From: Clostridia bacterium DTU068
GTDB lineage: Bacteria; Bacillota; DSM-12270; Thermacetogeniales; Thermacetogeniaceae
Direction of reading: 5' to 3'
NCBI GenBank assembly: GCA_001513545.1
Contig: LFTQ01000039.1
Span: 1-46,959 of the forward strand
DNA length: 46,959 nucleotides
A model generated the notes under the pieces. That model saw only the letters and a program-made list of their open reading frames with translations. It was not told where the DNA came from and searched no databases. The number at the start of each line of letters is the position of its first letter. Position 1 is the stretch's first letter. Shown here in pieces: positions 23,941 through 31,368 of this stretch. Made by a program: the position numbers and the translations under genes.

Positions 23941-25803
23941 CTACAACCAGCCCTTCTCCTTAATGAAATTAACAATACCCGCCGCATCCAAGCCCAGATC
24001 CCGGCGCAGAATATCAGGAGCACCGTGTTCCACAAAACAATCAGGAATACCTATTCTGGCTACCTCACCAGAGAAAGAATGAGTTGAGAGCATTTCCAAC
24101 ACCGCACTCCCAAAACCCCCAGCCAGAACATTCTCCTCCAGAGTAATAACCCTTTTCGTCCTGTTTGCCCACTCCAGAATCAACCGTTCATCCAGTGGTT
24201 TGACGAACCGGCAGTTAACAACTGCCATCTCTTTTCCGCAACAGGACAACCGCTCCGCTGCCTCAAGGGCCTGGTAAACAAGGGGGCCAACCGCAAAAAT
24301 AACCATGTCTGACCCCTCCCTGAGAAGTTCCCCTTGGCCCAGTGGGATCTCCTGCTGATGGTAATCAACCTCTTCCAATGGGCCGGCTCCTCTGGGATAG
24401 CGTACAGCCACAGGGCCAGAATAGTTAACAGCACTCTTAAGCATAGCAACCAGCTCATTTTGATCCCGGGGCACCATAACGGTCATCCCAGGGATATGGC
24501 GCAGATAGGAAAGATCAAAAATTCCCTGATGGGTCTCTCCGTCCTCTCCCACAATCCCTCCCCGGTCCAGAGCGAAGATCACATGCAGGCCCTGCAAAGC
24601 TGTGTCATGGATCAGCTGATCATAAGCCCGCTGTAAAAAAGTAGAGTAAATGGCCACAACCGGAAGACACCCCGCTCGAGCCAAACCTGCAGCCATGGTC
24701 ACCGCGTGTTCTTCAGCTATACCCACATCAAAAAAACGTTCTGGATACTTCCTGGCAAAATCCCGCAGCCCTGTACCATCAGACATGGCTGCAGTGATGG
24801 CTACCATATTGGGATGTTCTGCAGCTAGATCAACAACCGCTTTACCTAATACCTCTGTGAAAGAGGGAGCAGGTCCTTGGGATTTGGGAAGCCCTGTTTT
24901 TAGATCAAAAGACCCAATTCCGTGATACTTGTCAGGACATTGTTCCGCCGGTTTATATCCTTTTCCTTTTTTTGTTTTTACATGCACTAAAACAGGCCCG
25001 GTCAGCATTCTGGCTCTTTCAAATACCTTGATCAGGTCGTTTATATTATGTCCATCAATAGGGCCTAAATAGGTGAACCCCAATTCCTCAAAAAGCATTC
25101 CCGGTACCAGCAGATATTTCACACTGCCTTTGAAACGCTCTGCAGCTTTAAACACCCGTGGTCCTATATTGGGTATGCGCTGCAGAACTTCTTTTATCTC
25201 CCCCTTACTTCTGTGGTAAAAGGGATCTGTCCGCAGCCTGCTCAAGTATCCGGAAAGTGCACCCACATTCCTGGTAATGGACATCTCATTATCATTGAGA
25301 ACAACGATGAGACGGGTTCCCAATTGGCCGGTATGGTTTAATCCCTCAAAGGCCAACCCCCCGGTCAGTGCCCCATCCCCGATGACCGCGATCACTGAAT
25401 GATCTTCACCCTTCAGGTCCCTGGCTAGAGCCAAGCCTAAGGCAGCTGAGATGGATGTGCTGCTGTGGCCGGTTTCAAAACAGTCGTGAACACTTTCCCC
25501 ACATTTGGGAAACCCGCTCAAACCCTTATACTGCCGGAGGGTTTTCATCTGTTCACTCCTGCCGGTGAGAATCTTATGAACATAACTCTGGTGTCCCACA
25601 TCCCAGATGATCTTATCTTTAGGGGAATCAAAAACATAATGAAGTGCTAAGGTAAGTTCTACAACACCCAGGTTTGGAGCCAAATGGCCCCCTGTGCAGG
25701 ATACGATTTCAAGAATATAATCCCTTATTTCCTGTGCAAGAATATCCATCTGTTGAATAGACAGCATGCGGAGATCAGATGGTTGACAAATCCTTTCCAG
25801 CAT
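23941..25803 (-). CDS. dxs: 1-deoxy-D-xylulose-5-phosphate synthase
   Basis: A GTG at 25815 opens the frame by overlapping the oapA stop, but the ATG at 25803 has AAGGTG upstream and gives a family-like 620 aa. Thiamine diphosphate binding is shown by [16 protein letters not shown] and a later NDN; the transketolase-type pyrimidine domain contains the [16 protein letters not shown] segment (DRAG in many homologues). A C-terminal domain ends the protein. DXS condenses pyruvate and glyceraldehyde-3-phosphate in the MEP isoprenoid pathway. ispA upstream uses its products, and OLE RNA and oapA lie between the two. Confidence 0.96.
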
Positions 25804-25811
25804 CAAGAGCT

Positions 25812-26384
25812 TCACCTTTTTCCTTTATTCGAAAATAGTTCTCGTTTGGTCAGTTTTTCTAACCAGGCAATGATCTGCCCGATGCGAAAGATGATCTCTG
25901 TTGCCTCATTTAGTGCAATTCCTTTTCCTATCGCCTTACCTCCTACAGTAAGGGCAGCAACCAATCCGGTCATCACCGTTGTCAAGAGGGTGGTATCCAG
26001 TCTGGGGCCACCTGTCAAGAGTCGAAACACAATAGCAACCCCGATTGCACCACCTACTGTCGCACAGATGTCACCCATCACATCATTACATATGATTGAA
26101 ACCTGATCTGCATTTTTGACCAGCTTAACAGCCTGCCGCGCCCCCCATACCCTGTTAGCAGCCCGGGCATTTAAAGGGCTTATTTCCGCAGCTGCAGCAG
26201 CAAAACCTATCATATCAAAGAGTACACCGATAAGTATAATAATTAATAAAAGCAGCAATGCTAATACAAGAGTAGTGATTTTCCCCAGGAAAATATCAGA
26301 TAAGTAGCTGAACAGCAGGCTGAGAACAAATGTTAATAAAGCATTGCCCAGACCACGACGCAGCCATCGGTTTTGTTCAGGCAT
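25812..26384 (-). CDS. oapA: OapA, OLE RNA-associated membrane protein
   Basis: The 190-aa protein has about four membrane segments (about 11-28, 33-55, 103-125, 133-155) with an intervening polar stretch rich in Arg, Asn and Lys (about 68-93). The middle part resembles the DUF21 domain of CNNM/CorC magnesium transporters. Size, topology and position directly downstream of the OLE RNA and upstream of dxs match OapA of Bacillus halodurans, which binds OLE RNA and brings it to the membrane. The ribosome site is weak (GGTGA about 5 nt before ATG). The stop overlaps the alternative dxs start. The identification rests on this combined context. Confidence 0.85.
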
Positions 26385-26411
26385 TTAGGTCACCACGAAA
26401 TGTTATTAAGA

Positions 26412-27069
26412 AATAGGTTGGGGTAAGGTTTATAACCTCGACCTCCAACCTGATAAGATCTCAATGCAACAGGTGGTCTCCTGCTGAGTAAATATTGTGG
26501 CTTAGGTCTAGCAGGTTTTCCCAACAAGGATCCAGGACGTCGCCGTCCTGGTGGTTTCCCTTTCATCCCTGTTCTGCTTCGTTGCCGACAGCAGGGCTAG
26601 ATTACCACTTAGTCCACACTTTAATCCCCAACAGGAGCTGCAAAGCAGACAGTCTAGGAGATTTCCTCGACGTATTGGCCAGTTTCTAGCCTCTTTTGCA
26701 GTGAAGGTTTCAGCTCTGGCTTGCTGCTGCAGGGCCCTACACCAGCAGGCCATTTTTTTGGCATCCACCACCACCACTCAAGGCAGGCTACACTGCACAC
26801 AGCACTATCAGGTACCGCATACAGGTTCAACTCAAAGCCGTAGTATTATACCACGCACTTGAGCCTCCGCGGAAGAAGGGTCAACGCCTACATGCCATTG
26901 TAGATCGCCCCTCATCCTTAACTCCCAGCACAAGCCCCCGACTGGGCGTCGAAAGCCAGCACCAGGAACTTCATCGATGTGCCCGTGACGGATTTTTAGG
27001 CCCGCCTTCGAAACTAGCCGCTACGACTAGAATACTGCACCACCTGTCCATCATATCTTGATTCTTGTG
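26412..27069 (-). ncRNA. ole: OLE RNA (ornate large extremophilic RNA)
   Basis: A 762-nt stretch without a credible gene lies between ispA and oapA, exactly where OLE RNA is found in other Firmicutes. It has a consensus promoter at its 5' side and a dense set of stems on the minus strand: CCAGGACG-GCGA-CGTCCTGG (26551-26532, a GNRA tetraloop), CTAGTCG/CGGCTAG, CTACA/TGTAG and CTGCTG/CAGCAG. A 3' nested stem (AGGTTGG/CCAACCT with AGGTT/AACCT) sits at 26451-26415. About 650 nt agrees with the roughly 600-nt class. OLE RNA forms a membrane ribonucleoprotein with OapA. Ends are estimates: 5' from the promoter, 3' from the last stem. No T-run terminator follows, so read-through into oapA is likely. 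Confidence 0.85.
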
Positions 27070-27075
27070 AGAATT

Positions 27076-27104
27076 ATTATAACACAAATATATAAGCACA
27101 ACAA
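27076..27104 (-). promoter_or_regulatory. Sigma-A promoter of OLE RNA
   Basis: TTGTTG (27104-27099), a 17-nt spacer and a perfect TATAAT (27081-27076) lie 43 nt after the ispA stop. They predict a transcript start near 27069. It would allow OLE RNA, and oapA-dxs behind it, to be made independently of the upstream nuclease and ispA genes. Confidence 0.85.
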
Positions 27105-27146
27105 ATATTTGGGGAGAAAAGGAAATCAATACCACATTGGGTTGGT

Positions 27147-28034
27147 TTAGGATTTTCGGGAAAGGAGATATAGAGCCGCATCCCTTAGAAAATCTCCTTG
27201 AGGTCCAAAGGGAGCGAGGCTCTGATGGCATATTTTCACCTGTTCAGCTGCCAGTTCTCTAGCCTGTTCAGTGCCCAGGAGGGCTGGATAGGTGGCCTTT
27301 TTTTTGGCCAGATCCCGTCCTGTTTTTTTGCCCAGCAGCTTTTCATCACCTGTGATATCCAGCAGATCATCTATGATCTGATAAGAAAGGCCAAAGGCTC
27401 TGGCATACTCTGTTAGAGCCTGCAGTTCATCTTCAGGAGCAGCGCCCAGCAGTGCCCCACTCCTCACAGCTGCCAGGAAAAGCGCCCCTGTTTTATGTCT
27501 GTGGATATATTCCAGAATTTCCCTACTTACAGCAACCCCTTCTGACTCCAGGTCAACCACCTGACCGCCGATCATTCCCAGGGAACCGGCTGCTTTTGCG
27601 ACCTCCTGTACAACCTGCAGCACTGTACTTTCTGCAAAGCCTTCTTCCCGGAGAAGACAGAGGATTTCAAAAGCTCTGGTCAACAGAGCATCACCGGCAA
27701 GGATAGCTATAGCCTCTCCAAAAACCTTATGGCAGGTGGGTTTGCCCCGCCGGTAGTCATCATCATCCATGGCTGGAAGGTCATCATGGATCAATGAATA
27801 GGTATGGATCATTTCCAGTGCACCGGCAGCGGGCAGGACCCGCTTTTCCTCAACTCCAAAAATACCGGCTGCAGCTATGGTAAAGGCTCCACGCAAACGC
27901 TTCCCCCCGGCGAAAAGGCTGTAGCGCATAGCCTCATGAATTTTTGTGGGATAAACAGAGGGATGTGGAAGATAGTCTTCCAAAGCGTGATTGATCATCT
28001 CTGCTATACGGCTGAGTTCATCTTCCCATTTCAT
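27147..28034 (-). CDS. ispA: Polyprenyl synthetase (geranyl/farnesyl diphosphate synthase)
   Basis: The 295-aa enzyme shows the first aspartate-rich motif DDLPAMDDDDYRRG at residues 84-97, preceded by GGKRLRG (43-49), and the second motif DDLLDITGDEKLLGKKTGRDL near 220-240. The extended first motif (two residues between the paired aspartates) is that of bacterial FPP synthases. It elongates DMAPP with IPP in the cytosol. It overlaps xseB by 4 nt (ATGA). Chain length of the product is inferred from family, not shown. Confidence 0.94.
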   Translation of the reverse strand: MKWEDELSRIAEMINHALEDYLPHPSVYPTKIHEAMRYSLFAGGKRLRGAFTIAAAGIFGVEEKRVLPAAGALEMIHTYSLIHDDLPAMDDDDYRRGKPTCHKVFGEAIAILAGDALLTRAFEILCLLREEGFAESTVLQVVQEVAKAAGSLGMIGGQVVDLESEGVAVSREILEYIHRHKTGALFLAAVRSGALLGAAPEDELQALTEYARAFGLSYQIIDDLLDITGDEKLLGKKTGRDLAKKKATYPALLGTEQARELAAEQVKICHQSLAPFGPQGDFLRDAALYLLSRKS

Positions 28035-29542: not shown

Positions 29543-30397
29543 TTATACTCCACTCAAACGCTTGGCAGCTTCAACCAGATTGTAGATCAGCATAATGATC
29601 CGCATCGGTCCCACACCACCGGGAACCGGGGTAATAGCACCGGCTACCTCTACAGCACTGTCATAGTCTACATCTCCAATGGTTTTGCCATCGATCCAGT
29701 TGGATCCTGTGTCAATAACCACTGCACCTGGCTTAATCATATCCCCGGTGATTGCTCTGGGCCTTCCCACCTCTGTGATGATGATATCAGCCTGTTTGGT
29801 ATATGGCACGAAATCCTCATCCGGGTGTACCAGGGTAACCGCACATCCTCTTTCAAACAGCATCATTGTGATCGGTTTTCCTATCTCAATGGACCAGCCC
29901 ACCACAACCGCATGCTTCCCTTTGAAATCAACATTGATATTTTCCAGCATTTTAACACAAGCATTGGCTGTTACACCAAGATAGCATTCAGCCCCGATCA
30001 TCAAATTACCGAGGTTTACTGGGTGAAAGGCATCAATATCCTTTTCCGGTAGAATGGCATCCATCACCTGTTTCTCATACTGGTGCAAATGTTCAGGCAG
30101 AGGCAGTTGAATTAAAATCCCGTGGATCTTCTCATCTTTATTAAGCCGGTCCACAAGCCCCATTATCTCATCAATTGTTGTGTCATCACCCAAATGGTGA
30201 ACTTCTGCATAACCACCTACTTCTTCACACTTCTTAGCTTTACTGCGCACATAAAGAGCGGAATCATCGGCTCCTCCAACAAGAATAAGAGCCATTCCTG
30301 GAGTAACACCCTTCTTTTTTAGCTCTTCTACCTCTTGTTTCAGTGCATCACGAACCTCTGCCGCCATTTCCTTTCCACTGATTCGATCTGCTGGCAT
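29543..30397 (-). CDS. folD: FolD paralogue 2 (methylene-THF dehydrogenase/cyclohydrolase-like)
   Basis: The 284-aa product keeps the cyclohydrolase residues Y49 and K53 (YVRSKAK), the folate-binding GILIQLPLP and the aspartate in KDIDAFHP, and the PVPGGVGPM segment. It departs from typical FolD elsewhere: the PCTP motif after the lid is replaced by GVTAN, the Rossmann loop reads GWSIEIGKP instead of GRSxxVGxP, and the C-terminus has PMRIIMLIYN. It should still act in one-carbon metabolism, but cofactor preference is unclear. It is one of two tandem copies; the other (30499-31368) diverges differently. Confidence 0.88.
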   Translation of the reverse strand: MPADRISGKEMAAEVRDALKQEVEELKKKGVTPGMALILVGGADDSALYVRSKAKKCEEVGGYAEVHHLGDDTTIDEIMGLVDRLNKDEKIHGILIQLPLPEHLHQYEKQVMDAILPEKDIDAFHPVNLGNLMIGAECYLGVTANACVKMLENINVDFKGKHAVVVGWSIEIGKPITMMLFERGCAVTLVHPDEDFVPYTKQADIIITEVGRPRAITGDMIKPGAVVIDTGSNWIDGKTIGDVDYDSAVEVAGAITPVPGGVGPMRIIMLIYNLVEAAKRLSGV

Positions 30398-30498: not shown

Positions 30499-31368
30499 TT
30501 AGGACTGCTTCATCTCCAACTGCCACTTAGCAGCTTCAACAGTGTTGCGCATCAAAATGGCTGTTGTTGCAGTGCCGGCACCGCCAGGAACCGGGGTGAT
30601 CCATGAGGCTTTTTCCATAGCAGCTTCGGTTTCCACATCGCCCAGGATCTTCCCATCCCGCGGGTTGATTCCGATGTCAACAACAATAGCTCCCTCTTTA
30701 ATCCAATCACCCTTAATCAGGTGAGGTACTCCAACTGCTACAACTAAAATTTCGGCCCTGCGAACATGTTCCTCAGTTAATCCCCTCTGTCCGGTGGCAA
30801 TATGGCAAATGGTCACAGTGCCAAAGCTGTTCAGCAGAAGCAGTGCTGCCGGTTTGCCCACAATATCACTGTGTCCTACCACAACCACTTCTTTACCATA
30901 GAGATCCACACCTGTGGATTTGATCAATTCATAGGCCCCGAGTGCTGTACATGGTACCAATCTGGGTTTACCAAAGGTAACAAGACCCATATTGGTTGGG
31001 GTAACACCCTCAACATCCTTCTCATAAGCGATGCTCCACTGGCATACCTTGGCATCGATCTGCTCCGGTACAGGCATCTGCAGAATGATTCCGCTAACAT
31101 TGGGATCAGCATTGAGCCCAGCGATATGTTTGAGCAACTGCTCCTGGGTCATATCCGCAGGAAGCTCCTGCAGTTCATACTTGATGCCGCAGAGCTCAGC
31201 ATTTTTCTTCTGTGCATTGGTATACACCTTAGATGCTTCGTTCTCACCAACCTGAACCGCCACCAGGCTTGGGGAAACCCCCTTAGCCTTTAACTCCTCA
31301 ACCTCTTTTTTTACTTCCTCTTTAATCTTGTCTGCAAGAGGTTTGCCCTTTAAAAGTTGTGCTGGCAT
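30499..31368 (-). CDS. folD: FolD paralogue 1 (methylene-THF dehydrogenase/cyclohydrolase-like)
   Basis: The 289-aa product has the FolD fold with GIILQMPVP, VPCTALGAYELI, the Rossmann motif VVVGHSDIVGKPAALLLL and DWIKEGAIVVDIGIN, so the NAD(P)-binding half is canonical. In the folate site Y49 is kept, but the catalytic lysine expected at 53 is Q53 (YTNAQKK), the usual KDVDGFHP is KDVEGVTP, and PVPGGVGPMT is PVPGGAGTAT. This suggests dehydrogenase activity with reduced or absent cyclohydrolase activity. It lies upstream of the second folD by 101 nt and has AAGGAGGAGG before its ATG. Confidence 0.88.
   Translation of the reverse strand: MPAQLLKGKPLADKIKEEVKKEVEELKAKGVSPSLVAVQVGENEASKVYTNAQKKNAELCGIKYELQELPADMTQEQLLKHIAGLNADPNVSGIILQMPVPEQIDAKVCQWSIAYEKDVEGVTPTNMGLVTFGKPRLVPCTALGAYELIKSTGVDLYGKEVVVVGHSDIVGKPAALLLLNSFGTVTICHIATGQRGLTEEHVRRAEILVVAVGVPHLIKGDWIKEGAIVVDIGINPRDGKILGDVETEAAMEKASWITPVPGGAGTATTAILMRNTVEAAKWQLEMKQS

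Follow-up and report, generated by a model that had tools for sequence, protein, structure and literature searches.

Which molecule is encoded in a long interval devoid of genes that lies, together with one small gene, between ispA and dxs, and do these isoprenoid genes have any part in its function? This question is raised by the stretch of DNA analyzed here (the window), the 46,959 nucleotides of contig LFTQ01000039.1 of Clostridia bacterium DTU068. The original prediction, made from the letters alone, took the interval for the OLE RNA and the small gene for its partner oapA, and placed both, with a promoter, at positions 25812-27104, which correctly takes in oapA, OLE and the promoter. The gene-free interval has exactly the 762 nt announced, extending on the minus strand from the ispA stop (27147) to the oapA start (26384), i.e., over 26385-27146. 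The features of the locus are the following.

27147..28034, minus strand: ispA (farnesyl diphosphate synthase), upstream neighbour; NF045485, 364 bits
27076..27084, minus strand: extended -10 element TGTTATAAT; from the sequence and a motif conserved across lineages
26457..27059, minus strand: OLE RNA (RF01071), full length, 603 nt; cmscan 545.1 bits, E 3.2e-157
26732..26737, minus strand: self-complementary GGGCCC loop of the long P9 stem; from the sequence and the conservation alignment
26532..26551, minus strand: 8-bp hairpin with a GCGA (GNRA) tetraloop, P12.2/P13 region; hairpin scan, paired in the Rfam structure line
26415..26451, minus strand: hairpin between the OLE 3′ end and oapA; fold of 26385-26475
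25812..26384, minus strand: oapA, encoding a 190-aa CNNM-like membrane protein with four predicted membrane helices; signature, clade and structural model
26070..26084, minus strand: codons of the OapA DxxxD signature, residues 101-105 (DVMGD); extracted OapA proteins
23941..25815, minus strand: dxs, downstream neighbour; TIGR00204, 854 bits

When the window was compared with all Rfam families using cmscan, OLE was the sole match above the gathering score. Its 545.1 bits, where the gathering score of RF01071 is 50, far exceed the chance level (E 3e-157), and the match covers the model from position 1 to 616 of 616 and is thus not truncated. The covariance comparison that the original prediction had proposed as a check consequently bears out the OLE call. 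In an alignment of 87 OLE RNAs, the window RNA keeps all 174 positions that are conserved at 97% or more and shows no deviation at positions conserved at 95% or more; its largest departure from the Rfam model concerns the P7/P8 region. It shares with the Rfam OLE all 616 model positions, the conserved loops, the P9 palindrome, the GNRA hairpin and the gene order ispA-ole-oapA-dxs. OLE is found in 19 of the 20 genomes of the window's family, and sister genomes carry a near-identical OLE-oapA pair; OLE motifs and oapA are seen in Syntrophaceticus schinkii (locus L069) as well. The identity of the RNA is close to certain, and the locus likely specifies a working OLE ribonucleoprotein like those already described, which is already-known biology and ordinary for its group.

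The gene that starts 72 nt past the Rfam 3′ end of OLE, predicted to encode a 190-aa, about four-pass DUF21-like protein, can be identified as oapA by its DVMGD motif, its CNNM-like fold and its position in the OapA clade. The signature DxxxD is given as distinctive of OapA (PMC11332333), and the form D-x-x-G-D is common to all 96 OapA proteins that were extracted; an alignment of 20 sequences shows N100, D101, G104 and D105 as invariant. Maximum-likelihood analysis places the window protein among 49 OapA proteins, which a 100/100 branch splits from four CNNM proteins, so that it does not group with ordinary CNNM/CorC proteins as it might have done had the prediction been wrong. It shares 41-42% identity with OapA from Halalkalibacter species and resembles known OapA in its length of 190 aa, its four predicted membrane helices, the DxxxD and GGKAIGK motifs and its place directly downstream of ole, the differences being those of ordinary divergence alone. 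The AlphaFold model (pLDDT 82) shows long helices spanning residues 2-35, 39-65, 92-125 and 131-159, and the six top-ranking PDB matches to it are without exception CNNM/CorC structures (best E 0.013; TM up to 0.56, for MtCorB 7m1u). The same structural relation was reported for OapA of Halalkalibacterium halodurans (PMC11332333). Note that this link came only from the fold search, as phmmer and profile searches against PDB sequences gave nothing useful.

Could the protein simply be an ordinary member of the CNNM family? The CNNM/DUF21 domain of MpfA, CorC and CorB does give a weak profile match and a similar predicted fold. However, the PF01595 match is sub-threshold (24.0 bits, cut-off 28.4), no NCBIfam model matched the 190-aa protein, and CBS and CorC domains are absent, the protein ending at residue 190. 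Moreover, in a single-sequence hhalign comparison, itself a weak match, OapA GGKAIGK aligns to GELVPK of a CNNM protein from the same genus; by this alignment OapA has a glycine opposite the conserved CNNM proline, which it lacks, and the residues of GGKAxGK are invariant among OapA proteins. We therefore rejected the identity of an ordinary CNNM protein on the grounds of the separate clade, the score below the PF01595 cut-off and the missing CBS and CorC domains.

The consensus promoter predicted upstream of the RNA stood in part. The sequence there reads TTGTTG-17 nt-TATAAT with TGT immediately before TATAAT, so that the extended -10 element TGTTATAAT is perfect, although the -35 box TTGTTG is poor (three of six consensus matches). 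A generic promoter scan returned no -35/-10 pair near 27080, because the -35 box is weak, and it was the comparison of lineages that recovered the element. No more than 75 nt upstream of the conserved 5′ motif, 58 of 102 OLE loci have an exact TATAAT, versus 12% in shuffles, these loci coming from within and outside the window's family and being related, with a few near-copies, so that the counts are not independent. This TATAAT nearly always has the TGnTATAAT form, and its spacing is lineage-typical, with values of about 20 in Bacilli, 31 in relatives of Syntrophomonas and 38-40 in the nearest relatives of the window. From this conservation we read the extended -10 as the probable promoter of ole. 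The polycistronic transcript published for H. halodurans is compatible with a separate ole promoter.

Within the RNA, the predicted 8-bp GNRA-capped hairpin is present as CCAGGACG-GCGA-CGUCCUGG, inside OLE and in the P12.2/P13 region to which OapB binding maps (PMC9723947). The loops through which OLE dimerizes in cryo-EM structures, namely those of P4, P5.1/P6.1 and P9, match the consensus letters; the palindromic P9 loop GGGCCC appears fit for the loop-loop contact described there (PMC12265935). The P6 stem differs from that of H. halodurans OLE, in which a CCUCC anti-Shine-Dalgarno mimic is used for bS21: in the window, P6 reads GAUGAGGGG/CCCUUCUUC, and CCUCC was not found in it (OLE positions 138-190, about 26870-26922, minus strand). 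With the mimic missing, bS21 may bind otherwise here, or not at all, but P6 mutants in which the pairing was kept and the mimic was gone still bound bS21 (PMC12054373). Downstream of OLE, the region 26385-26475 folds with -28.3 kcal/mol (z -3.6 vs shuffles), and the hairpin at 26415-26451, with a weak U tract on its 3′ side, may be a 3′-end or processing element.

The other core partners of OLE are both encoded elsewhere in the same genome. The gene of the OapB homologue, a KOW protein, lies between map and infA (57.6 bits, 1.1e-14 to the solved OapB 7k9b), and the OapC/YbxF homologue is an L7Ae-type protein between rpoC and rpsL (55 bits, 8e-14 to the solved YbxF 4lck). No CNNM-like protein other than OapA was found in this genome (90% complete, 222 contigs), which is in line with the published anticorrelation of OLE and MpfA. 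Four other genomes of the window's family (G006, G007, G016 and G017, loci L020-L023), two of which (G006 and G007) share the window's genus, encode OLE plus a full MpfA-type CNNM protein, so that the anticorrelation is not strict here; in view of these four genomes and of a completeness of only 90%, the missing MpfA proves little.

We now turn to the isoprenoid genes. The window has, in this order, the pyruvate carboxylase genes, nusB, two folD, xseA, xseB, ispA, OLE, oapA, dxs, tlyA, nadK, argR, recN, spoIVB and spo0A, with the start of dxs overlapping the end of oapA. The two folD genes are divergent and stand in tandem (29543-30397 and 30499-31368, minus strand), an arrangement fitting an organism with a heavy one-carbon flux. 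The neighbourhood was counted, gene by gene, over Bacillota loci from genome contigs with enough flanking sequence: 66 of 67 have OLE ahead of oapA, 52 of 64 have ispA upstream, 62 of 68 have dxs directly downstream of the pair, and tlyA is found at most 3 kb downstream in all 68. In the remaining six of the 68 loci, dxs is missing at that place and ole-oapA adjoins tlyA. Hence ispA and dxs are members of an old conserved Bacillota gene cluster which ole-oapA shares, and not constant partners of the pair.

Outside the Bacillota, four loci from records titled Actinomycetota carry OLE and oapA. In the family of one such record, full-length OLE (430-499 bits) was found in 17 of 35 genomes, with oapA directly downstream in all 17, one of them cut by a contig end:

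Loci L142-L158 (genomes G020-G023, G026-G028, G030-G034, G036-G038, G043 and G046): OLE-bearing loci of this family

Neither ispA nor dxs adjoins the pair in these 17 loci. The flanking genes, named by inspection, recur among family members and differ by subgroup, DNA polymerase III delta-like and ComEC-like genes flanking the pair in one subgroup and flavin-reductase-like and PAS-GGDEF-HD genes in another. Furthermore, a search of 17 family genomes (12 of them with OLE) detected no dxs: the best DXP-synthase matches reached 18-51 bits, against 415 bits for the window's dxs and 245-406 bits for many other genomes of the phylum. In a tree of 13 family and 33 Bacillota OLE RNAs, the former make up one clade (100/100) with two deep subgroups, which is not nested in one Bacillota lineage, and in the OapA tree three family proteins agree with the OLE tree. 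No further OLE was detected among 397 genomes drawn from that phylum. The label Actinomycetota rests on record titles and assigned taxonomy. When RpoB domains of OLE-bearing genomes were scored against PDB chains, a chain that we take to be of actinobacterial type came barely first in one comparison, and chains that we take to be clostridial came first in the other.

Earlier work set aside 24 non-Bacillota OLE hits as likely transfer or assembly errors (PMC11332333). Against this view of them as strays, the occurrence of OLE-oapA in the family labelled Actinomycetota looks like long residence, and we did not find it reported in the literature searched. OLE-OapA is thus probably not a Bacillota-only, isoprenoid-linked system: a family labelled Actinomycetota appears to have carried the pair for long, in contexts of its own and without dxs, and the non-Bacillota hits would not all be strays. 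If this is true, OLE function has to be explained without recourse to the DXP pathway.

These comparisons bear on the proposal that OLE acts locally on isoprenoid synthesis, either as a cis regulator of oapA-dxs or as a sensor of the ispA/dxs pathway. It draws its support from the frequency with which ispA and dxs flank the pair in Bacillota, but in six Bacillota loci tlyA follows the pair in place of dxs, in the family labelled Actinomycetota the neighbours of the pair are unrelated genes and dxs is missing, and the published OLE phenotypes are stress phenotypes. The interplay with isoprenoid genes on both sides, which the original prediction had left unexplained, thus looks positional. Because dxs is missing in six Bacillota loci and the pair is found in a dxs-less family, a required isoprenoid link is unlikely; we rejected cis-regulation of isoprenoid genes for the same reasons, and consider a local isoprenoid role in general to be very improbable.

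More weight has to be given to the idea that the RNA is a ribozyme, in which catalysis, for example the making of a signal nucleotide, would be the main function and OapA only a membrane anchor. The large size of OLE and its about 25% of near-invariant nucleotides have been argued in this sense (PMC11332333, PMC12265935), and the window RNA retains every conserved position. However, no activity is reported in the literature examined, structural contacts of the RNA-only dimer account for part of the conservation (PMC12286853), and OapA is itself CNNM-like; we regard a ribozyme as unlikely, if clearly less so than a local isoprenoid role. A decayed, non-functional OLE copy kept by genome inertia has nothing specific in its favor apart from the fragmented assembly (222 contigs), and its probability is negligible: the conserved positions are unchanged, sister genomes have a near-identical pair, and it was rejected since the RNA, the promoter and oapA are all intact.

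Overall, the locus is likely best explained by an OLE ribonucleoprotein that works through the steps known from other species. OapA binding, membrane localization, RNA dimerization and stress phenotypes have been demonstrated in H. halodurans and clostridia (PMC12265935, PMC12286853, PMC9723947), and the conservation of every part suggests that the particle would assemble here by the same steps. Transcription of ole would probably start near 27069 from its own extended -10 promoter, perhaps with a contribution of read-through from ispA, oapA and then dxs lying downstream. The RNA would fold, dimerize via its conserved loops and bind OapA dimers, which would place it at the membrane; OapB would occupy P12.2/P13 and OapC the kink turn. 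The most likely output, quite possibly though tentatively, would be stress adaptation by control of a CNNM-like, Mg2+-related activity of OapA; this Mg2+ step is put forward as a hypothesis. In such a ribonucleoprotein, ispA and dxs would be neighbours by inherited gene order and no working parts.

Among well-conserved bacterial RNAs that have no assigned biochemical function, OLE is one of the largest, and every intact copy found together with its three partners aids comparative work. Taken alone, the copy in the window, whose host is related to the syntrophic genus Syntrophaceticus, contributes little. The comparison yields two usable results, the extended -10 promoter before OLE and a lineage labelled as non-Bacillota that has OLE and OapA and no dxs. 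The part worth following is the latter side result from the family labelled Actinomycetota, as the presence of the pair in a dxs-less lineage means that OLE function does not require isoprenoid coupling via the DXP pathway.
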